From Shimia isoporae (GTDB lineage Bacteria > Pseudomonadota > Alphaproteobacteria > Rhodobacterales > Rhodobacteraceae), in contig NZ_SMGR01000001.1 in the NCBI RefSeq assembly GCF_004346865.1, positions 992,001-1,056,000 of the forward strand: 64,000 bases of DNA, read 5' to 3'. The notes below the pieces were generated by a model, which was not told the DNA's origin, did not search any database, and worked only from the letters and a program-made list of their open reading frames with translations. Below are positions 9,938 to 20,633 of this stretch, in pieces. Every line of letters begins with the position of its first letter. Position 1 is the stretch's first letter. The position numbers were made by a program, and so were the translations under genes.

Positions 9938-10771
9938 GTGCAGCAGTATCACGACGGACTAAAAACCATTCTGGAACATGGCGAAGTTTCGGGTGACCGG
10001 ACGGGCACTGGCACAACCTCCTATTTCGGTATGCAGATGCGCTATCGCCTTGCGGACGGGTTTCCTTTGGTCACTACCAAAAAGCTGCATCTGAAGTCGA
10101 TCATCCATGAGTTATTGTGGTTTCTTGCTGGTGACACCAACATAAAATACCTCAAGGAAAACGGGGTGCGCATCTGGGACGAATGGGCGGATGAAAACGG
10201 CGACTTGGGTCCGGTATACGGACATCAGTGGCGCGCATTCCCCGCTTTGGTACCGGCTGGACAAGATGCCCGCGGTACGCCGATCTATACCGAGCGCGGA
10301 GTGGATCAGGTGGCCGATCTGGTCGAGATGATCAAAACAACGCCCGACAGTCGTCGCTTGATTGTCAGTGCATGGAACCCGGGTGACGTACCTGACATGG
10401 CTTTGCCGCCGTGCCACACGATGTGGCAAGTGCGGGTTTTGAACGGAAAACTGCACCTTCAGCTTTACCAGCGGTCTGCCGACATGTTCCTTGGGGTGCC
10501 GTTCAATATTGCGTCCTATGCATTACTCCAGGTGATGCTGGCGCATGTGACGGGCTATGAGCCGGGTGACTTCGTGCACTCGATAGGGGATGCGCACATC
10601 TACTCCAACCATATGGACCAGGTGCAGCTACAGCTCAGCCGTAGCCCGAGGGCCCTGCCAACCCTGAAAATCAACCGTAAGGTCAACTCGATCTTTGATT
10701 TCAAATTCGAAGACTTCGTGTTTGAGGGATACGATCCTCATCCAACGATCAAAGGCGTAGTGGCGGTATAA
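9938..10771 (+). CDS. thyA: Thymidylate synthase
   Basis: ThyA methylates dUMP to dTMP with methylenetetrahydrofolate, which becomes dihydrofolate. GTG 9938 is chosen because the product then begins (M)[11 protein letters not shown], as in homologues; the longer open frame from 9782 carries unrelated residues. Signatures are GDRTGTGT near the start, the catalytic cysteine in [23 protein letters not shown], and [10 protein letters not shown]. The 277-residue length is slightly above the 264 of E. coli because of an insert around [17 protein letters not shown]. folA follows after two bases, coupling dTMP synthesis with dihydrofolate recycling. Confidence 0.95.
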
Positions 10772-10773
10772 AT

Positions 10774-11259
10774 ATGATCTCTTTGGTTGTTGGACGGGCG
10801 GCAAACGGAGCTATCGGGAGAGATGGTGATATTCCGTGGCATATCCCCGAGGATTTGATGACATTCCAGCGCGAGACGTTGGGCGGCGCAATTATCATGG
10901 GTCGGAACACGTGGGACAGCCTGCCGAAGAAACCCTTGCCGCGGCGGTTTAATATTGTGGTGAGTTCACAACGCGATGCGGCGGAAGTCGTGGTGGGGTC
11001 TGTCGATGAGGCCGTCGCGCTGGCGCGGTCGGAAGGGTACCACCGCGTTTACGGAATAGGCGGAGCGGGAATCTATCGCGAGATGATGAAAATCGCGGAC
11101 CGGATGCTGATCACGGATGTTGATACGGTTATCGAGGACGCAGACACTTTTTTTCCTGAATTTGACTCCAACCATTGGCGTCTTGAATACGAACAGTTGC
11201 TAGCAGGCGCAGAGCCGCGTTCGGTGGTGCGGGAATACATGCGCAGAGAGACGACTTGA
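10774..11259 (+). CDS. folA: Dihydrofolate reductase
   Basis: The 161-residue enzyme reduces dihydrofolate to tetrahydrofolate with NADPH and is the trimethoprim target. Motifs include LVVGRAANGAIGRDGDIPWHIPEDL with the catalytic acid, IIMGRNTW for NADPH binding, and a GIGGAGIYRE segment near residue 95. Start ATG is two bases after the thyA stop, a common operon order. Nothing is unusual in length or motif. Confidence 0.95.
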   Translation: MISLVVGRAANGAIGRDGDIPWHIPEDLMTFQRETLGGAIIMGRNTWDSLPKKPLPRRFNIVVSSQRDAAEVVVGSVDEAVALARSEGYHRVYGIGGAGIYREMMKIADRMLITDVDTVIEDADTFFPEFDSNHWRLEYEQLLAGAEPRSVVREYMRRETT

Positions 11260-11369
11260 AGCGTGGGGCGAAACACATTGTTTCCCAAAGGGAAATTGAC
11301 AGTTTCTAGACGAAAGATTTAGTCTTATTTTTGACAAATTGTTGTTGCAGCAGCCGGAGCGAGTGCCCG

Positions 11370-11669
11370 ATGAAACGTTTTATTGTCTTGGCAGTGGCCA
11401 CCACATTGGTCACCGCAGCGCCTGCAGTGGCGCAAACATGGAGCAGCAATGCTCCGGTTATTGGCCCAGTTAACAAACCGGAAGGCCTGTTGATCCATCC
11501 GTATCCTGCGAGCGCAAACCACTGTCCGCAGGGCTTGCAGCCTGTGACTATGGGCGGGGTCATCTGCTGTGGCGAACCGACCACGAGCGAAACCTATTAC
11601 AACCGCGCAGGCGGCAGCAGCCACGGCAAATCAATGAGCTGCCCGGCAGGTCAAAAAGGTTGTAGCTGA
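11370..11669 (+). CDS. Small secreted cysteine-containing hypothetical protein
   Basis: The 99-residue product starts at ATG 11370 after GGAGCGAG. It has a signal peptide (MKRFIVLAVATTLVTAAPAVAQ), giving a mature protein of about 77 residues with five cysteines (NHC, VICC, MSC, KGC), proline and glycine rich. The cysteines could form disulfides or bind metal in the periplasm. I do not recognise the family. It stands alone between folA and the convergent cold-shock gene; a weak hairpin follows. Confidence 0.72.
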   Translation: MKRFIVLAVATTLVTAAPAVAQTWSSNAPVIGPVNKPEGLLIHPYPASANHCPQGLQPVTMGGVICCGEPTTSETYYNRAGGSSHGKSMSCPAGQKGCS

Positions 11670-11680
11670 GAAGGCAGGGC

Positions 11681-11699
11681 GGGGCGCTAAATGCGCCCC
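11681..11699. terminator. Hairpin between convergent genes
   Basis: GGGGCGC (11681-11687) and GCGCCCC (11693-11699) enclose a five-base loop. T-runs are weak on both sides, so termination is plausible but not strong. Confidence 0.45.
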
Positions 11700-11711
11700 A
11701 ATCCTTAGATA

Positions 11712-11918
11712 TTACAATAACTTAAGTTCGCCGGCCATGTCGCGGCCGTCCCGGCCCTGCGTCATTTCGTACTCGACTTTCTGATTGTCCGCGAGCCCCT
11801 TGAGGCCCGATCTTTCGACGACAGAAATGTGGACAAATACGTCCTTGCCGCCTTCTTCCGGTTCAATAAATCCAAATCCCTTTGTGGTATTGAACCACTT
11901 TACGGTACCGCGTGGCAT
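11712..11918 (-). CDS. Cold-shock domain protein (CspA family)
   Basis: The 68-residue single cold-shock domain protein has RNP1-like KGFGFI and RNP2-like VFVHI motifs and starts MPRGTVKWFN after AGAGGAG. It binds single-stranded nucleic acid and acts as an RNA chaperone in the cytoplasm. Upstream in-frame residues to 12002 are not family-like. The 215 bases before the start may form a structured leader, as in other csp genes, but no defined element was identified. Whether it is cold induced cannot be told. Confidence 0.92.
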   Translation of the reverse strand: MPRGTVKWFNTTKGFGFIEPEEGGKDVFVHISVVERSGLKGLADNQKVEYEMTQGRDGRDMAGELKLL

Positions 11919-12133
11919 ACCGTTCTCCTCTATTTTCCAGTACAACCCGGACCGTTGTTTCCGGGGGCGCACCTCGATCCAATCACCGATATAAATTTGC
12001 ACGGATGCAGAAAATGAGTTGCACCTGCTAAGAGGATTGCATGGCCGATGTAAAAATCAAGCAAAACCAACTCGAAACCATCGGTTCAGTGCGGTAAGCC
12101 TTTGGAGAAATTGTCGGCTAGGGAGGCCAAATC

Positions 12134-12445
12134 GTGCGACTTTACGGTCTGAAAAACTGTGATACCTGCCGCAAGGCTTTGAAAGCTCTAAATAATGCTG
12201 AGTTCATCGATGTGCGGACAGATGGTGTTCCTGCAGATATAATGACCCGCGCGTTTGATGAATTTGGCGACAGATTGTTAAACACCCGTTCGACCACGTG
12301 GCGCCAGCTTGACGCCGAAGAGCGTCAAAAGCCGGTCTTGGAATTGCTTTCTGCTTATCCGACTTTGATGAAGCGACCGCTTATCGAAAGCGGCGACGTG
12401 CTCTATCTCGGATGGACCAAGGAAGTGCAGGCTGCGCTTGGATAA
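12134..12445 (+). CDS. ArsC/Spx-family thioredoxin-fold protein
   Basis: The 103-residue ArsC-family protein has an N-terminal CDTC pair in LKNCDTCRKAL (residues 9-12), thioredoxin-like fold and a conserved LMKRPLIE segment (near residues 79-86). The start is GTG 12134 after GGGAGG. YffB/ArsC-like proteins include arsenate reductases and uncharacterised redox proteins; with no arsenic genes nearby an arsenate role is not supported. A membrane-protein gene follows after 46 bases on the same strand. Confidence 0.85.
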   Translation: MRLYGLKNCDTCRKALKALNNAEFIDVRTDGVPADIMTRAFDEFGDRLLNTRSTTWRQLDAEERQKPVLELLSAYPTLMKRPLIESGDVLYLGWTKEVQAALG

Positions 12446-12491
12446 CACCTTCGGCGCCCCTATGTGAGGCAGCAGGTTACAGGAGAATGCA

Positions 12492-12860
12492 ATGCGCAAC
12501 GCGGCACTAACGCTTGGAATTATTGCGGGCGTGATCGGTATGATCATCGGTTTTTTCGGTTGGGGCTATACTGAGGCCATCGAGCGCTGGGGGGAGATCC
12601 CAGACGTCGCCGAGCAGGTAGACAATATACAGCTGGTGCGCGCGGGCGCTTTGTTGGCGCCAATGCTTGCGATTGCCGGTGGCGCAATGGCAAAAGCACG
12701 CGCGCTTTGGGGCGGTGTGCTTTTGATCCTATCTGCCCTGGGCATGTATGCCGCTTTCGGGTTCAATGTTTTCACGATGTTCCCGATCAGCTTTGCGGGT
12801 TTGGGCGGTATTCTGGCCTTGGCTGCAGGAAAACCGGATGAGCCGAAAGCTCATTTCTGA
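12492..12860 (+). CDS. Small integral membrane protein, hypothetical
   Basis: The 122-residue product has about four hydrophobic segments (near residues 5-25, 50-66, 70-85, 92-112) separated by a charged loop TEAIERWGEIPDVAEQVDN. ACAGGAG precedes the ATG. The family is not recognised. Its stop codon directly abuts the stop of the convergent DoxX gene, leaving no intergenic bases. Confidence 0.7.
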   Translation: MRNAALTLGIIAGVIGMIIGFFGWGYTEAIERWGEIPDVAEQVDNIQLVRAGALLAPMLAIAGGAMAKARALWGGVLLILSALGMYAAFGFNVFTMFPISFAGLGGILALAAGKPDEPKAHF

Positions 12861-13379
12861 TCAGGCTCTTGCTTTGAAAAGCCGGTCGAGCGACAGCGGA
12901 CCGGCCCCCCTGATCACCAGGACAGCGAAAAGAAATACCCACATTGTGCGCTGATCCAAAAGCTCTTGCGGACTGTCGAACAGCGACCCGAGTTTGGCTC
13001 CATGCCCAGTTACATCAACGAGAGTCTGCACAGCAACGAAGCCAATCATGCCCAAAGCAGCCAGACGCGTGAGCAGTCCAATCACAATCAGGACCGGCAA
13101 AACGAATTCGGCTAATGTCCCCGCAAAAATGACAAGACGCTGAAAGAGCGACATCTGGCTTACGTCCCAGAGGACGGCTTCGGCGGCTTTGGGGAAAATC
13201 TGGCCAAAGGCGCCAGAAGAGGGGGAGAAGATGCTGCCATCTATCTTGAGCAGCGCAGAATTCCAAAAGTAGAAGAACAGTACAGCGAGAAACGTAAGCC
13301 GAGCCAACGTCGGCACATGTTGTTCAAGCTGGTCCAACCTTTCGGTGAGGCTGCTATACAGTGCGATAAGATTTCTCAT
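12861..13379 (-). CDS. DoxX family membrane protein of the bufferin operon (BufD-like)
   Basis: The 172-residue product, starting at ATG 13379 (MRNLIALYSSL) after GGGAAGG, has four predicted membrane helices and DoxX-like features: ALLKIDGSIF, AEFVLPVLIVIGLLTR and a terminal WVFLFAVLVIRGAG. It is the last gene of the operon bufA-bufB-bufC-doxX, 28 bases after bufC. DoxX proteins commonly accompany DUF692/DUF2063 pairs and are thought to act at the membrane in redox or export steps; the exact job is unknown. Confidence 0.82.
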   Translation of the reverse strand: MRNLIALYSSLTERLDQLEQHVPTLARLTFLAVLFFYFWNSALLKIDGSIFSPSSGAFGQIFPKAAEAVLWDVSQMSLFQRLVIFAGTLAEFVLPVLIVIGLLTRLAALGMIGFVAVQTLVDVTGHGAKLGSLFDSPQELLDQRTMWVFLFAVLVIRGAGPLSLDRLFKARA

Positions 13380-13407
13380 GGTCCTTCCCTTCAATAATCC
13401 CCTGTTT

Positions 13408-14160
13408 TCAGGGTGTAATTTTCAGCGATGTGATCGCGTTTCCTCCGAGCAGAAGCGCGAGCAACGCGCCAAGGTCAAAGTTCGCAGCAACTTCGGAGCC
13501 AGCGGAGACGCCTTCGCCCAGTGTTTTGCCTTCCATCAACGCCGCCATGCAGGCGTAAGCGCCGGCAGGAAGAGCGTGCGGTGTCGGATCGAACTCGGCT
13601 CGGGTGATCAAAACATCTTGTGCGGTGGCCTCGGGTTTCGGTCCGTTGGCCATATTGAAAGCCCAGATGGCGTGCTGCGGCCACGGCGATTGCAGGATTT
13701 CGAGAGCCGGGGCAAAGGTCATAACCACGTTGCCAAGTTGCAATGGATCGATTTCTGCCAGCGCATCCGGCGCAATCGGGCTGGCATCTTCGGCGTGGTA
13801 CGCACGACGCAAAGCAAGCTCCAGCTTAGCAACATCCCCAAGATAGCCCAGATGTTGCAGCGGCTCAAAAGCTGAGAGGAATTCAGGAAACCCCGCTCCA
13901 TAGTGCATCATGAGTGGTGAAGCAGGAGGCGATTGTCGAAGAAAGACGCCTGCGATCGCGTTGAAGTTTTCCTCGCCAAGTAGCTTTGCGATGGTCGGGA
14001 AACCTTGCGCGAGAGCCTCGGTCAGGGAGACGGCGACGTTGTTGCGATAGACGTCGAACCTGCGGCCTGCGGCACGGCCTTTGTCGTCTACCAATCCCAG
14101 AGGGCGGTCCCGCGCTCCGTCAAGCAATGCGCCGCGGAATTCGGTTTGAGAGACGATCAT
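13408..14160 (-). CDS. bufC: DUF2063 partner protein of the MNIO enzyme (BufC)
   Basis: The 250-residue product has an N-terminal DUF2063/HvfC-type domain (about residues 8-95, with GRRFDVYRNNVAVSLTEAL and the GFPTIAKLLGEENF region) and a less conserved C-terminal half. Proteins of this family bind the precursor leader and hand the core peptide to the multinuclear iron enzyme encoded next to them. The start overlaps the bufB stop by four bases, indicating coupled translation and a likely complex. Assignment rests on domain type plus complete operon context. Confidence 0.88.
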   Translation of the reverse strand: MIVSQTEFRGALLDGARDRPLGLVDDKGRAAGRRFDVYRNNVAVSLTEALAQGFPTIAKLLGEENFNAIAGVFLRQSPPASPLMMHYGAGFPEFLSAFEPLQHLGYLGDVAKLELALRRAYHAEDASPIAPDALAEIDPLQLGNVVMTFAPALEILQSPWPQHAIWAFNMANGPKPEATAQDVLITRAEFDPTPHALPAGAYACMAALMEGKTLGEGVSAGSEVAANFDLGALLALLLGGNAITSLKITP

Positions 14161-15011
14161 GCCGGCACCTTTGACAATGCCGCTGTTGCGCGTGTGGCTT
14201 CGTCATGCAGCACGGTCCATTCCGGCACATCATTGTCCCACTCAATGAGGATGGGACGTGGACCGGAGAGTGCCAGTGTGTGATCCAGAAGCGCCCAGAC
14301 GGGGTCAACCACTGGTTTTCCGTGACTGTCGATCAACAAAGGGCGACCGTGATCGTCTTCATCTTCGTCGTGACCGCCAAGGTGGATTTCGCCAACTTTA
14401 TCAAGCGGGTAATCCGCGATGTAGTCCTTTGGGTCGTAGTGCAGATTGGTGGCCGAGACGAAGACGTTGTTCACGTCAAGCAGCAGTCCGCAGCCTGTCC
14501 GCTCAGACACTTCGCGCAAAAAGTCCGGTTCGGACCACGTGGACTCGGAAAAGGCGAGGTAGCTTGACGGGTTTTCCAGCATCATTTGCCGCCCGATGGT
14601 ATTTTGCAGTTGATCTATATGATCTGCGACGCGGGTCAGGGTCGCTTGTGTGTATGGCAGCGGCAGCAAGTCATTCAGAAATGCGCCATCATGCGTAGAC
14701 CAAGCAAGATGCTCTGAGAAAACCGTTGGATTTAGCCAACCGACCAAGTGTTTCAGCCGCGCCAGATGTTCGGGGTCAAGTGCGCCTTCACCGCCAATGG
14801 ACAAGCCAACACCGTGAACGGAAATCGGAAAACGTTCGGCAAGATGTCGGAGTTGTGCGAGTGGCCGTCCACCTGAACCCATATAGTTTTCAGCATGAAC
14901 CTCGAGCCATGCGACGTCGCCGGCGTCAGAGATCAGATCGCTGTAGTGTTGGGGTTTGTATCCGACGCCGGGTCTATTGGGCAGGGCAGTAATACGGGTT
15001 TCATCCAGCAT
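14157..15011 (-). CDS. bufB: DUF692 multinuclear non-heme iron oxidative enzyme (BufB)
   Basis: The 284-residue TIM-barrel enzyme of the DUF692/MNIO family shows PGVGYKPQHYSDL, EVHAENYMGSGG, FPISVHGVGLSIGG (metal-binding His), SEHLAWS, LLDVNNVFVSATN and IHLGGHDE, which together supply the His, Asp, Asn and Glu ligands for two or three iron ions. MNIO enzymes oxidise cysteine residues of ribosomal peptides; bufferin-type members convert them to thioamide-bearing heterocycles that bind copper. It overlaps bufC by four bases and follows bufA after 102 bases containing a strong hairpin. Confidence 0.92.
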   Translation of the reverse strand: MLDETRITALPNRPGVGYKPQHYSDLISDAGDVAWLEVHAENYMGSGGRPLAQLRHLAERFPISVHGVGLSIGGEGALDPEHLARLKHLVGWLNPTVFSEHLAWSTHDGAFLNDLLPLPYTQATLTRVADHIDQLQNTIGRQMMLENPSSYLAFSESTWSEPDFLREVSERTGCGLLLDVNNVFVSATNLHYDPKDYIADYPLDKVGEIHLGGHDEDEDDHGRPLLIDSHGKPVVDPVWALLDHTLALSGPRPILIEWDNDVPEWTVLHDEATRATAALSKVPA

Positions 15012-15072
15012 GGCATGTCTCCAGAGTTGGCGTCGATATTGGGGGAGAATAACCCATCCCTGCTTGAAGTGT

Positions 15073-15102
15073 GAGGCCCCGGGGGGATGAACCCGGGGCC
15101 TC
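15073..15102 (-). promoter_or_regulatory. Hairpin between bufA and bufB
   Basis: A perfect 11-bp inverted repeat (15073-15083 with 15092-15102) with an eight-base loop lies just after the bufA stop. No T-run follows on the minus strand, so it more likely stabilises the bufA message or partly attenuates read-through, raising precursor over enzyme levels, than acts as a full terminator. Confidence 0.65.
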
Positions 15103-15113
15103 GCGTGTCGGGA

Positions 15114-15416
15114 TCAACCCGGGATATCACGCTCCAGAGCTTCCAGGGCACCCATGCGGGCGGAGCCATCTGCCATTGCAGGCAGTTCCATGTCCGCGCA
15201 TGTGCCGGCGTCAACCAGTTTCCATGCGTTGCCCTGATAATCTACGGTGGAGGTACCTGCGCAGGTTGTGCCGGGGCCGGCGGCGCAGTCGTTTTCGCCT
15301 GCCAGAGCAACGCCGTAGCACTTCTCTTTTTCAGCGGCAGAAGCGGTTGTTGCGTGTGCGCTCAGAGCAGCTGCGACGGCGCCTGCAACGGCGAGAGTTT
15401 TGACGGTGTTCGACAT
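15114..15416 (-). CDS. bufA: Bufferin precursor peptide (DUF2282), BufA
   Basis: The 100-residue product has an N-terminal signal peptide ([20 protein letters not shown] to about residue 29) and a mature part with four cysteines in the DUF2282 pattern: [40 protein letters not shown]. In characterised bufferins these cysteines are modified by the MNIO enzyme and the secreted product chelates copper. ATG 15416 is preferred over ATG 15422 because AAAGGGAA then has normal spacing. It is first of the four-gene operon and has its own upstream region with a candidate ECF-type promoter. Confidence 0.9.
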
Positions 15417-15460
15417 CTTCATTTCCCTTTCGGTGTTGAACTCGGCCGGGCATTTCCGCC

Positions 15461-15486
15461 TCGGCATGTCTCAACACTAAGGTTCC
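15461..15486 (-). promoter_or_regulatory. Candidate ECF-sigma-type promoter for the bufferin operon
   Basis: On the minus strand GGAACC (15481-15486) is followed after 17 bases by CGA (15461-15463), the general form of extracytoplasmic-function sigma promoters. It would place the transcript start roughly 35-40 bases before the bufA ATG. Bufferin operons elsewhere are often ECF-controlled. No sigma gene is in the window, so this is inference from spacing. Confidence 0.35.
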
Positions 15487-15563
15487 AGCACTGTAACGTG
15501 CCAATCACACGCCTGTGTGCCACAGGTATGTTATCGGCTGTAACAAAGGGAAATGTTGTCGAG

Positions 15564-16420
15564 TTAGACGCAAAAAATGCCGGCTTGCACCGGGCATTGA
15601 AGCAGGTGTGCCTGCGTGAAGCGCGGTACAGATCCCTCCAAGAATTCTGGGCGCAAATTGTCTATCTTTGCGATTTGTGCTGCGGTCAGAGCGGGGGCGG
15701 TTTCCGCGTCAGAAAAAAGGCTTTCGGCCCATTTTCCTTGGGCTTTGAGAAAACCTTGCCTTCCAGTACAAAGTGAAAATAGATCACAGTTTGCGATTTC
15801 CGGTCAGTTAGGATTGCCCGCTCGTCGGCCAAGGATTTGATCGGGCCACGCACTTCGCTCTGGCCGAAAAGACGATCAGTCCGTCACACTGAATGCGGAA
15901 CGCGAAGTTGCGAGAACAGGTGGAAATCCGCATTTGGTTTGCCGGCGCCGAGACCGGTTTTGTCACACAACCGGGGCGAAAACGGCGATTGTTACAAAGA
16001 TCAAGCGCGGTAAATCGACGGCTGTCGAACCCGAGAGCACGGTCGATGCCCGCTTCTGTAACAATTCATGGGCCTCGGAAAGGTCTGAGGTTGTGGAATC
16101 GCCCTTTGGTGTGGCCATCAACGGGCACTCGGCGAAGCAGATCGTGTATTAGGGGGCATTGGACCGTCGCTGACGCCGGAAATATTGAAAGTTTGACCTG
16201 CCAAAAACTGTCGATGCTGCGAACATAAAGAGGTTGTTGCCGGGATTAGAGGTGCCCGTGCCGATCCTAACAACGACAAAGGTGACCGTGGGATGTAGTA
16301 GGATAAGAGTCGATCGCCGCTTGCGATGATGGGTCCCGCAGGGTAGGGCGCGCCGTCTATGGTCAAGTCATTGGTCGCCAGCGATTACCTGTCAGGGTCA
16401 TTGATCTGCGGTGCATATAC
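15564..16420 (-). pseudogene. Degraded Hint-domain (Hint_2) protein gene
   Basis: This kilobase has no intact gene, but reading the minus strand across frames yields a collinear Hint-domain protein. In order: TIDGAPYPAGPII, then in another frame TVTFVVVRIGTGTSNPGNN, then back to GQTFNISGVSDGPMPPNT, then CFAECPLMATPKGD, the Hint start (usually CFxxGTLIxTPxGx). After stops come RLFGQSEVRGPIKSLADE and VIYFHFVLEGK, with a final frame change to GKWAESLFSDAETAPALTAA, ending at TAA 15564. The spans match the Cys start, the LFGxDEVLxPxKxL block and the ESFxP tail of Rhodobacteraceae Hint_2 proteins. At least four frameshifts and internal stops, plus N-terminal truncation near the thrS terminator, mark it as dead. 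Confidence 0.65.
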
Positions 16421-16430
16421 AAAAGGAAAT

Positions 16431-16450
16431 GGGGCGCGAATTCGCACCCC
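16431..16450 (-). terminator. Terminator after thrS
   Basis: GGGGCGCG (16431-16438) and CGCACCCC (16443-16450) form an eight-pair stem (one G-T) around AATT. On the minus strand it is followed by a T-rich tract (ATTTCCTTTTG), 28 bases after the thrS stop. Confidence 0.75.
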
Positions 16451-16478
16451 ATAAGTTTGTTTCAGGTTAGTATCGGTG

Positions 16479-18434
16479 TCAGTCGGCGAGCAAGTCTGGC
16501 GGGGTTGCCTCGACAGAAAGCTGGGACACCATCTCGTCCAAAGACTTAACTTGTGTTTGTTTTTCACCGAGGCGACGGGCCGAAACCGTGCGGTCCTCTA
16601 CCTCTTTCTTGCCGATGGCAAGAATTACCGGAACTTTGCCAACCGAGTGCTCGCGCACCTTGTAATTGATCTTTTCGTTGCGCAGGTCCGCTTCTGCGCG
16701 GACACCGGCGGCCTTGAGTGCTTCGACCACTTCGAGACAGTAATCGTCTGCATCCGAAACAATAGAGGCCACCACGACCTGACGCGGGGCAATCCAGAAA
16801 GGCAGTTTCCCTGCATGTTCCTCGATGAGAATGCCAATGAACCGCTCAAAGGAGCCAAGGCACGCGCGGTGCAGCATAACCGGCCTGTGTTTCTCGCCGT
16901 CCGCTCCGATGTAATGCGCATCCAGACGCTCGGGCAGAACGAAATCGACCTGGAAGGTGCCGCATTGCCAGACCCGACCAATAGCGTCGGTCAGGGAGAA
17001 CTCGAGTTTTGGTCCGTAGAATGCCCCTTCACCCGGGTTCATTTCGGGCTCAACACCTGCGGCGCGCGTTGCATCGAGCAAAGCTTTCTCAGCCTTGTCC
17101 CACACTTCGTCGCTTCCCGAACGCGTTTCAGGGCGGTCGGAGAACAGAATGCGGAATTCCTCGAACCCAAGGTCCTTGTAAACCGCGGAAAGGAAGCGGA
17201 TGAACTCGGCACACTCCGCACCGATCTGTTCCTCGGTTGAGAAGATGTGTGCGTCGTCTTGAGTGAACCCGCGCACGCGCATGATGCCGTGCAGGGCGCC
17301 TGATGGCTCGTATCGCGCGCAGGAACCGAACTCGGCCATACGCAGTGGCAGATCACGGTAGGATTTCAGGCCCTGTTTGAAGATTTCAACATGGCAGGGA
17401 CAGTTCATTGGTTTGAGCGCGTTGATCGCTTTCTCGCGAGCGTGTTCTTCGTCCACTTCGACTATGAACATGTTCTCCTGGTATTTGTCCCAGTGTCCGG
17501 ACTGCTCCCAAAGTTTGCGATCTACAACCTGAGGCGTATTCACCTCGACATATCCACCGCGTTTCTGGGCGCGGCGCATGTAGTCCTGCAGCATGGTGTA
17601 AATGGTCCAGCCGTTCGGGTGCCAGAAGATCTGGCCTGGCGCTTCCGGCTGTAGGTGGAACAGGTTCATTTCGCGCCCAAGACGACGATGGTCGCGCTTT
17701 TCGGCCTCTTCCAGCATATGAAGGTGTTTCTTGAGGTCTTCTTTGTTCTTGAAGGCGACCCCGTAGATGCGTTGCAGCATCGCGCGGTCGCTGTCGCCGC
17801 GCCAGTAGGCGCCAGCAACTGACATGAGTTTGAACGCGTCTGCAGGTACCTGACCGGTGTGGGCGAGGTGAGGACCACGGCAGAGATCCTGCCAGTCGCC
17901 GTGCCAATACATGCGCAGCGGCTCGTCGCCAGGGATCGCTTCGATCAGTTCTACTTTGTAGGGCTCGTTGTTGTCTTCGTAGTGTTTGATCGCGCGCGGG
18001 CGGTCCCAGACCTCGGTGGTCACGGGCTCACGCTTGTTGATGATCTCTTTCATCTTCTTTTCGATGAGACCTAGATCTTCAGGGGTAAAGGGTTCTTCCC
18101 GATCGAAGTCGTAATACCAACCGTGCTCGATTACTGGGCCGATGGTCACTTTGACATCAGGCCAGATCTCCTGAACCGCGCGCGCCATGATGTGCGCGCA
18201 GTCGTGACGGATCAGTTCGAGCGCTTCGGCGTCGTTGTCCTTGATGGTGTTGATTGCAATGCTTGCATCTGAATCAATTGGCCACTGGAGATCCCAGTGT
18301 TTGCCGTCGACCGTCGCGGAGATTGCTTTCTTGCCCAGCGAGGTGGAAATCGAGGATGCGACCTCGGCAGGAGTAATGCCGCTCTCATAGGAACGTGCGT
18401 TACCATCAGGAAAAGTAAGGGAAATATCGGCCAT
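16479..18434 (-). CDS. thrS: Threonyl-tRNA synthetase
   Basis: The 651-residue class II synthetase charges tRNA-Thr. ATG 18434 ([11 protein letters not shown]) is used, with GAGGAG upstream; an in-frame extension to 18530 is not family-like. The domains follow the usual order: TGS (1-60), editing domain with [10 protein letters not shown] (HxxxH near 72-76), catalytic core with the zinc cysteine in [11 protein letters not shown] and [20 protein letters not shown] (motif 3 region), then the anticodon-binding domain from about 540. All key residues are visible. It is expressed apart from the downstream pseudogene, and the MAPEG gene lies upstream on the same strand. Confidence 0.97.
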
Positions 18435-18541
18435 TAGCCTCAAGCTCCTCGTCAGTTTGGCGCCCACGGAACGCCCGGTTGCGGGTATATGGTTCGATGC
18501 GTGTTTTACGCGGGTTTTTAGGCAAGTCAAGAAACAGATCG

Positions 18542-18563
18542 GGGCGCTCCTGTCAGAGCGCCC
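18542..18563 (-). terminator. Hairpin between the MAPEG gene and thrS
   Basis: GGGCGCTC (18542-18549) and GAGCGCCC (18556-18563) form a perfect eight-pair stem nine bases after the MAPEG stop. The minus-strand downstream tract (GATCTGTTTCTTG) is only moderately T-rich. Confidence 0.55.
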
Positions 18564-18571
18564 GCGAATTG

Positions 18572-18979
18572 TCAGTTAAATCCGATGCGGAAAACGGAAT
18601 AGGCCATCAAGAGAACGCAGACCCATCCACCCAGATATATCATAGGACGCACCGGCAAGCGCGCGATGCCGGAAATCATTCCGATCGCATGAGCGACCCG
18701 CAACGCAAAAAACACAACGGCTGCCCATAAAGTAAGTGATGTGAAGCCATCCTGCTGGTTCAGGATAAGTACCAGTCCGGCGAACGGGAGGAGTTGTTCC
18801 AGCAGGTTGAGATGTGCGCGATGTGCGCGGTGCACCCACTCAGGGTATTCGCGCAGGTCGGCTGGCCGGGCAAAGCTATCGCCTGAAACCTCATATTTGT
18901 TCACACCCACGATAAAGGGAATCCACATCGAGGCGGCAAAGATCATAAGACATGTGAGAATACCGATTTCCGTTGGCAT
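18572..18979 (-). CDS. MAPEG family membrane protein
   Basis: The 135-residue product has four predicted membrane helices and the MAPEG pattern: a polar loop with [29 protein letters not shown] (Arg/His-rich then NxxEQ-like) and a final pair of helices. MAPEG proteins include glutathione-dependent transferases and peroxidases of the membrane; bacterial members like this are mostly uncharacterised. It starts five bases from the end of the ArsR-SRPBCC gene, so the two are probably co-transcribed. Confidence 0.87.
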
Positions 18980-18984
18980 GACAT

Positions 18985-19746
18985 TTATCCCAGTGGGTAG
19001 CCGAAGCGGCGGGCAGGGCCGACCTCAAGGAAGGACTTTAGGGCCGATGCAAGGCGCGCCCAACCTTCTCCGACCCCATCTTGGCCCTGCGGGATATTGT
19101 AATGTTCGATGGTGAGTTTCATGGCATCGCCAGAAGCTTCGACCAGATACACGCATTTGGACGCGGGGGCGTCAGGTCCGAAGAAATGCGGCTCGAATGT
19201 CAATTCGATCCGGCTCTTGGGGTCGATCGCTGTGAGTTCAAAATCGAGCATGCGGGACCCGTCTGGCAGTAAAAACGATTGCCGGTCGCCTGAGGCTGAC
19301 AGATCACCGCGTACGGTGTCGCACGCAAAGTGATACTGGGCGGCGAGGTCGCCCTTTGTCAGGGCATCCCAAAGGCGGTCATGGGTGGTTTCTATGAAGG
19401 TTTGCATAACAAAGTCAGGGGCAGGCACAGTCATTTCAGGGCTCTCCAATTGAGATTTTAGGTTCAATACTGCTCTGGCGCTGGGTTTCTCGATCAAAGG
19501 ATCGATCCAGTGATCTATGGCCTGTTGAAGTGGTAAAACGTTCAGGTAGTGATGTTTGAAACGGCCTCTTTTGTGGGCCACGACCAATCCGGCTTCTTCC
19601 AACACAGAGAGATGCTTCATGACGCCGAAACGGGTCATTTCGAGCTGTGTTTGAAGCTCTTGCAAGGTTTGCCCATTCTTCCGGCGCAAGCTGTCCAGAA
19701 GGGTGCGGCGGGCTGGGTCGCCCATAGCTTTAAAGATCGCGTCCAT
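18985..19746 (-). CDS. ArsR-type HTH fused to SRPBCC (AHSA1-like) domain
   Basis: Start ATG 19746 gives MDAIFKAMGDPARRTLL, the usual ArsR opening, and a 253-residue protein; an in-frame TTG at 19782 would extend over the operator. Residues 1-95 are a winged-helix ArsR domain (TLQELQTQLEMTRFGVMKHLSVLEEAGLV). From about 105 an SRPBCC/Bet v1-like domain follows (FIETTHDRLWDALTKGDLAAQY and GEGWARLASALKSFLE). Such fusions let a hydrophobic-ligand pocket control DNA binding, although the ligand is unknown. An inverted repeat 11 bases upstream suggests autoregulation and control of the divergent hydrolase. Confidence 0.87.
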   Translation of the reverse strand: MDAIFKAMGDPARRTLLDSLRRKNGQTLQELQTQLEMTRFGVMKHLSVLEEAGLVVAHKRGRFKHHYLNVLPLQQAIDHWIDPLIEKPSARAVLNLKSQLESPEMTVPAPDFVMQTFIETTHDRLWDALTKGDLAAQYHFACDTVRGDLSASGDRQSFLLPDGSRMLDFELTAIDPKSRIELTFEPHFFGPDAPASKCVYLVEASGDAMKLTIEHYNIPQGQDGVGEGWARLASALKSFLEVGPARRFGYPLG

Positions 19747-19756
19747 AGAAGTCTTA

Positions 19757-19794
19757 TAGGTTACCAATAGATCACGTGACAATATGGTAACCTA
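19757..19794. promoter_or_regulatory. Inverted-repeat operator of the ArsR-SRPBCC regulator
   Basis: TAGGTTACC (19757-19765) and GGTAACCTA (19786-19794) form a perfect nine-base inverted repeat with a 20-base spacer holding CACGTG. It begins 11 bases before the regulator start codon and lies between the two divergent genes, a position suited to autorepression. Confidence 0.6.
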
Positions 19795-19880
19795 TTGGCG
19801 ACGTGCGGTCAGCGGCGAATTTTCTTCCAAAGGTCTGTGTTTGCAGGCTAAATCAGCCAGAAGTTTTTTGGGGAGTTGGC

Positions 19881-20633
19881 ATGGTGTCGATGCTGAAAAC
19901 GCCGCAAGGGCGGCGAATCGCGTACCACAAGACCGACGGGGTTGGGCCTACCGTGGTCTTTCTCGGAGGTTTGAAGTCTGACATGGAGGGCACGAAGGCA
20001 ATCCATTTGGAGGAGTGGGCAAGGACCCGAGGCCAGGCGTTTTTGCGATTTGACTACTCAGGCCATGGAGAAAGCAGCGGCACTTTCGAGGACGGTTGCA
20101 TCGGCGATTGGCACGAAGACACGGTGGCTGCAGTCAGCGCGCTAACTGAAGGACCTTTGGTTGTCGTTGGATCTTCGATGGGCGGTTGGCAGGCGCTTTT
20201 GCTGGCAAAGGCGATGCCTGAGCGGATCGTCGGCTTGGTTACAATCGCCGCAGCGCCGGATTTTACCGAGGACAGCTATTGGGCGGGCTTTGACGACGCG
20301 CAGAAGGCGGCCCTGGAAGCCGTTGGATACGTCGATTTGCCGTCCGACTATATGGAGCCTTACCGCATTACGCGGCGGATGATCGAGGATGGGCGCAAAC
20401 GTCTTGTTTTGCGCACACCCCTTTCCCTGCCGTTCCCTGTCTGGTTCCTGCAGGGCACCGAGGACACAGCGGTTACCAGCGAAACGGCGATCAAATTGAT
20501 TGAGCACGCGGACGGCACAGACATGCAGCTGTTGATGGTAAAAGGGAAGGACCATAGGTTTTCGGATCAATTTTGTCTAAAATTGATTGAAACAAAGGTG
20601 GAGGCGGTGCTGAAAGCGTCGGAAGTTGCATAA
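19881..20633 (+). CDS. Alpha/beta hydrolase
   Basis: The 250-residue cytoplasmic hydrolase starts at ATG 19881 after GGGGAG; the in-frame extension to 19803 is unlikely. It has FLGGLKSDMEGTKA, FDYSGHGESSG near residues 57-67, nucleophile elbow GSSMGGW near 97-103, and a late Asp/His pair (GTEDTAV, KGKDHRFS). The pattern resembles ABHD10-like thioesterases/carboxylesterases, but the substrate is open. Its stop overlaps the next gene's start by one base (TAATG), so they are translated together. Upstream is the operator of the divergent ArsR fusion. Confidence 0.85.
   Translation: MVSMLKTPQGRRIAYHKTDGVGPTVVFLGGLKSDMEGTKAIHLEEWARTRGQAFLRFDYSGHGESSGTFEDGCIGDWHEDTVAAVSALTEGPLVVVGSSMGGWQALLLAKAMPERIVGLVTIAAAPDFTEDSYWAGFDDAQKAALEAVGYVDLPSDYMEPYRITRRMIEDGRKRLVLRTPLSLPFPVWFLQGTEDTAVTSETAIKLIEHADGTDMQLLMVKGKDHRFSDQFCLKLIETKVEAVLKASEVA

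Follow-up and report, generated by a model that had tools for sequence, protein, structure and literature searches.

How might a bufferin operon be controlled in a bacterium whose genome gives no match to NrsF? The question is raised by a locus of Shimia isoporae that lies in a stretch of 64,000 nucleotides (the window), within contig C1 of a 4.2 Mb genome in nine contigs. Four genes, bufA, bufB, bufC and doxX, follow one another in this order on the minus strand between positions 12861 and 15416 (Table 1), and form one apparent transcription unit. The preliminary description had recognised them as a DUF2282 peptide, a DUF692 enzyme, a DUF2063 partner overlapping it by four bases, and a DoxX membrane protein, together a bufferin operon. 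These assignments were all borne out, the overlap having the sequence ATGA; the extent given, 12861-15486, contains the genes but at its end takes in promoter DNA. All four proteins scored above the Pfam gathering score, and four family matches of this strength rule out chance. The gene order agrees with that of known bufferin operons, and in the whole genome MNIO and DUF2282 are each matched once. Judged by sequence, this is an ordinary bufferin-1 operon of a Shimia-like roseobacter; the nearest relatives in a genome scan were Shimia, with a BufB identity of 89% (among the best 80 loci). We consider it very probable that the operon yields a modified, periplasmic, copper-binding peptide, and probable that it is controlled from an operator through an unlinked activator.

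The relatives used for comparison were the best 80 loci of the scan of species genomes, with titles of Rhodobacteraceae and of unplaced alphaproteobacterial metagenome-assembled genomes. The genes bufA, bufB and bufC were found in 80 of the 80 loci, and doxX, in the same four-gene order, in 78; the other two loci stop inside bufC. The bufA promoters have in common a 33-bp element with the consensus TNACR-N4-YGTGA-NN-CACR-N4-YGTGA-NTNG, which consists of two TNACR-N4-YGTNA palindromes with their centres 15 bp apart. Since its 29-bp core is nearly symmetric, both strands match. The element is present upstream of bufA in 79 of the 81 promoters analyzed (relatives plus window; L031, whose bufA is truncated at the end of the contig, was left out). 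It is lacking in two promoters, that of bufA in L052 and that of the second copy of the tandem bufA in L015.

In 45 non-redundant promoters the element has an information content of 1.10 bits per column; for the 100 bases on its left the value is 0.15. With a matrix trained on the same sites, the 79 copies scored 22.9-46.2, and the maximum among 1620 mononucleotide-shuffled promoters was 6.4. With a matrix built without Shimia sequences, the window site ranked first of 127,936 positions with a score of 24.7, and the runner-up among independent sites reached 2.5. A [TC]TANNNT hexamer was found 18-21 bases past the element in 64 of the 79 promoters, and in 0-3 in each of nine other offset bins. 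If this hexamer is the -10 box, the element spans approximately -65 to -33, which is the position of an activator site. An Rfam search returned nothing at the gathering threshold within the window, and no tandem repeats were detected within 10000-20000. As an observation by eye, the region upstream of bufA in L160 (genome G031) contains a variant with the palindromes 16 bp apart instead of 15; by the matrix score the element is absent there, and G031 counts among the ten genera with neither control (see below).

The best-described bufferin control offers a different arrangement. The Caulobacter operon (CC3254-CC3257, part of the sigF regulon) is from another member of the Alphaproteobacteria and has the same order of DUF2282 (the precursor), DUF692, DUF2063 and DoxX genes. 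It is described as driven by sigma F and restrained by the negative regulator CC3252 (PMC3511200), which we take as being of the NrsF type. There, sigF (CC3253) and the anti-sigma gene adjoin and drive the operon, whereas the window genome has no match to NrsF and carries the double palindrome. The pattern GTAACC-N16-CGAA, with up to two mismatches, had no minus-strand match within 600 bases upstream of bufA; over the whole window it occurred 48 times, with 44.7 expected. A sigma-F-like pattern was seen in the promoter of L052, alone among the 81 of the family, and in six of ten promoters from NrsF genomes. In L052, whose single-copy bufA lacks the element, NrsF (E 6.9e-60) and a gene for an extracytoplasmic function (ECF) sigma factor lie beside bufA, facing away. 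Another ECF-type promoter pattern (GGAACC, then CG after 14-19 bases) was found near bufA in the window and in L004, and further upstream in L038; it was rejected because it is absent from all the other of the 81 promoters (last 200 bases).

The two types of control were then compared across Rhodobacteraceae, with one genome per genus. DUF2282 was present in 55 of 80 genera and NrsF in 13 of 80. NrsF was counted if it lay within 5 kb, and the element if it lay within 400 bases upstream of bufA in a table of hits of the search model R1 that was drawn from 43 of the R1 rows listed. R1 and gene positions alone gave 30 of the 55 bufA genera with the element (accepted on hits down to E 0.2), ten with NrsF, none with both and 15 with neither. 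A direct matrix scan of these 15 genera at a threshold of 15 gained five more, four with the site upstream of bufA and one with it between bufA and bufB (Table 1). G270, scoring 10.4, and nine others stayed without the element. In the last of the five (G275, locus L178) the copy between the two genes, at position 1804, is the stronger one, and a weak copy (14.3) lies upstream of bufA. The final split is therefore 35 genera with the element, ten with a nearby NrsF, none with both and ten with neither (Fisher p 6.3e-6, a value that ignores kinship). The ten promoters from NrsF genomes showed no element on scanning, with a top score of 2.3. Both the matrix and R1 were trained on promoters of this same family, so that the count of 35 among the 55 genera is not wholly independent. 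In R1 searches of ten genomes (at most 150 candidates in each), the site at bufA was found in seven, as the top hit each time, and not in the other three.

Outside Rhodobacteraceae none of 28 bufA promoters contained the element; 29 loci, drawn from 63 other genomes of the class with DUF2282, were read, and the mis-framed L146 was removed. DUF2282 itself was found in 64 of 190 genomes of the class and in all 25 genomes of the genus, 14 of which have at least two matches.

The mutual exclusion of element and NrsF points to a change from control by an ECF sigma factor to control by a trans-acting activator. On balance we favour the view that the Rhodobacteraceae bufferin operon moved from the ECF sigma-F/NrsF pair to a dedicated double-palindrome operator, and that this operator is read by an unlinked regulator with the operon as its main or only target. 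The peptide system itself is unremarkable, one more entry in a known family with thousands of sequences; only the operator and its exclusion of NrsF are not found in print, neither the element nor its either-or pattern with NrsF having been met in the literature searched. Bufferins are a recently described and widespread class of metal-binding peptides, and in the same literature their control is worked out for Caulobacter sigma F and has been looked at in Legionella. The operator is thus a concrete handle in marine roseobacters, a 33-bp site that could be used for testing control and for fishing out the regulator.

What kind of protein would read such a site? PMC7380067 describes AgrR of Cupriavidus as a class II activator whose binding site, ATKACANNNNTGTMAT, is an inverted repeat of 6-4-6 layout accompanied by extra half-sites, and CopR and PcoR as binding an inverted repeat within 16 bp. 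Compared with ATKACANNNNTGTMAT, the roseobacter element contains the ACR-N4-YGT core twice, with degenerate outer positions. It resembles the AgrR, CopR and PcoR boxes in its inverted repeat of about 6 bp, 4-bp spacer, extra half-sites and class II position; it differs from them in that its palindromes come as a pair, 15 bp apart, with half-sites richer in G/C, and in that no linked regulator gene could be recognised. The analogy makes it reasonably probable that the element is bound by a metal response regulator of the OmpR family. In such a scheme, excess metal would trigger an unlinked activator, most likely of this family, which would sit on the double 6-4-6 palindrome adjoining the -35 region and so replace the sigma-F/NrsF pair.

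It is quite possible, nevertheless, that the palindrome is read by a regulator of another family, such as a repressor of TetR or ArsR type. In favour of this alternative, a linked response regulator could not be recognised and none of the eight scanned regulators of the OmpR family has a copy of the element, whereas the 6-4-6 layout, the extra upstream half-site and the position by the -35 region agree with the AgrR, CopR and PcoR sites. Among gene clusters kept in at least 12 of the 80 loci, reading of the genes (no family search was made) recognised no regulator save one of ArsR type. This ArsR-type gene, about 4 kb upstream of buf in 14 loci, is regarded as unrelated.

Several observations weigh against the preferred reading, a copper-related operon switched by an OmpR-family metal regulator. 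No response regulator in the genome exceeded the cut-off of the heavy-metal response regulator model (TIGR01387; best 165 bits, cut-off 279.2), and of the ten OmpR-family regulators matched over nearly their full length, eight were scanned and have no element near them. One of these eight is a PhoB and one a CtrA at the NCBIfam cut-off, and the other six were under cut-off (among the 25 families listed for each). With no TIGR01387 member over cut-off and no element at the eight regulators, the regulator class is one that we infer. In the genomes searched the element occurs almost exclusively at the buf promoter, so it provides no link between the operon and known copper genes. In two of the ten genomes searched with R1, both Shimia, a weaker, partial element, identical in the two, was found between a redoxin gene and a divergent pyridine-nucleotide reductase gene, and in G262 a good match (21.3 bits) lies inside a 275-aa coding frame, upstream of what by eye is a hisD-like gene. 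Finally, the ten genera with neither control are left outside the either-or pattern.

Table 1. Positions of the buf genes and of promoter elements in the window and in other genomes
Feature	Position	Strand	Description
bufA	15114..15416	-	bufferin-1 precursor, 100 aa; DUF2282 E 1.9e-24
bufB	14157..15011	-	MNIO enzyme, 284 aa; PF05114 (MbnB_TglH_ChrH) E 1e-103
bufC	13408..14160	-	DUF2063 + RRE-like partner, 250 aa; PF09836 E 9.4e-25
doxX	12861..13379	-	DoxX membrane protein, 172 aa; PF07681 E 6.4e-06
putative buf operator	15501..15533	-	conserved double palindrome; in 79/81 bufA promoters
putative -10 hexamer TAGTGT	15474..15479	-	hexamer offset pattern across 79 promoters
partial redoxin/reductase element	L095 1501-1533 (G000:C2)		
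partial redoxin/reductase element	L094 1501-1533		
element added by direct scan, G276	upstream of bufA		score 21.6
element added by direct scan, G277	upstream of bufA		score 21.4
element added by direct scan, G226	upstream of bufA		score 18.7
element added by direct scan, G249	upstream of bufA		score 17.5
element added by direct scan, G275	bufA-bufB gap		score 33.8

The product of the operon was analyzed from the precursor onwards. The likeliest start of BufA is the ATG at 15416 (MSNT...), although translation could also begin at an in-frame ATG at 15422; the M-S start is invariant in 26 aligned sequences. The N-terminus, read by eye, has a short basic start (Lys) followed by a hydrophobic segment and a putative cleavage site, ASA|AE, and resembles a Sec-type signal peptide. 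Cysteines are present at positions 33, 44, 52 and 73. In an alignment of 82 BufA rows (the window plus 81 copies from the 80 loci) these columns are filled in 81, 82, 82 and 82 rows, the sole gap being in a copy truncated by a contig end. The DUF2282 domain is followed by a conserved C-terminal tail of the LxxLxRDLP type in the roseobacter proteins (15117-15180 in the window), which sets them apart in the comparison with Caulobacter: the tail is missing in many BufA of other alphaproteobacterial families, and a few have a similar end. The preliminary description had a secreted DUF2282 peptide with four cysteines. The DUF2282 similarity, over cut-off, and the four cysteines were found; published bufferins are reported to act in the periplasm (PMC12452194), so that "exported" suits the peptide better than "secreted".

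The enzyme is equally typical. BufB scored 369.9 bits with the NCBIfam equivalog for the bufferin maturase (NF050167 MNIO_BufB, cut-off 310). The iron ligands described for TglH are His71, His107, Glu151, Asp184, Asn187, His216, Asp229, His231 and Glu258 (PMC10880893), and these align to H66, H101, E146, D179, N182, H210, D228, H230 and E257 of BufB, with identical residue types. All nine are invariant in 27 aligned BufB proteins, in keeping with the full MNIO ligand set noted earlier for the DUF692 enzyme. The AlphaFold model of BufB (pLDDT 87) has 3bww (the best, TMq 0.76), TglH and MbnB as its top PDB matches. DoxX scored 27.1 bits with PF07681 (cut-off 23.6).

The chemistry can be proposed from studied relatives. 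In Buf1, as described in PMC12452194, the two central cysteines are modified and the outer two are disulphide-bonded. By homology, we infer thiooxazole formation and copper binding by BufA as well. BufC would hold BufA via the signal peptide, and BufB would oxidise Cys44 and Cys52 to 5-thiooxazoles in the cytoplasm. Export of BufA by the Sec pathway would be followed by formation of a Cys33-Cys73 disulphide, and the periplasmic peptide would then bind excess copper. DoxX may have some membrane role.

Other operons share parts of this design. The GIG operon of Cupriavidus and Legionella is made of the same four families, and a response to gold and copper is reported for it. The oxazolin (hvf) and fontiphorin operons and the captophorins likewise combine an MNIO enzyme and a DUF2063/RRE partner with a Cys-rich precursor and a thiooxazole product, and hvf shares two more features, a signal peptide on the precursor and a DoxX-like gene. 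Their precursors have EGKCG repeats, whereas the precursor studied here has a DUF2282 core, and no EGKCG repeat was found in the BufA sequence. The NCBIfam models for HvfB, HvfC and HvfX (NF050144) were all under cut-off in the buf proteins.

A modified peptide could be made and yet serve mainly against another stress, such as gold, chromium, cadmium or other, rather than copper. The Caulobacter operon is indeed reported to be induced by dichromate and cadmium via sigma F (PMC3511200). We regard this alternative as unlikely, given that the studied bufferins and the related thiooxazole peptides are described as binding copper (PMC12452194 and PMC12668002), and retain a copper-binding bufferin as the preferred product.

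The partner protein bears on the last alternative. The AlphaFold model of BufC (pLDDT 93) matches TglI (8hci_A, 8hi7_A) and NGO1945 (3dee), with TMq 0.52-0.61 over the query length, and had no further PDB match at E <=0.001; 3DEE is named as an MNIO partner in PMC12668002. The RRE domain of BufC is thus suggested solely by likeness of fold. In view of these matches, the Pfam label "DNA-binding" of DUF2063 is not evidence of a regulator here. A literal reading of the Pfam descriptions ("Putative DNA-binding domain", "Predicted integral membrane protein"), with BufC as a DNA-binding regulator, BufA as a membrane protein and no ribosomally synthesized and post-translationally modified peptide, is hardly credible against the fold that BufC shares with the MNIO partners TglI and NGO1945, a BufA that reads as a signal peptide plus Cys core, and a BufB in which all the ligands are kept.

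Two features near the operon were also noted. A 98-aa frame on the plus strand at 11373-11666 has the look of a small exported protein containing several cysteines; neither Pfam nor NCBIfam gave a match to it at E 0.001. In the gap between thrS and bufA (15560-16390), minus-strand gene pieces in several frames have a decayed appearance; their counterpart is at 3407-4444 of the relative L003, an open stop-to-stop frame of 346 aa with a Hint domain (PF13403).

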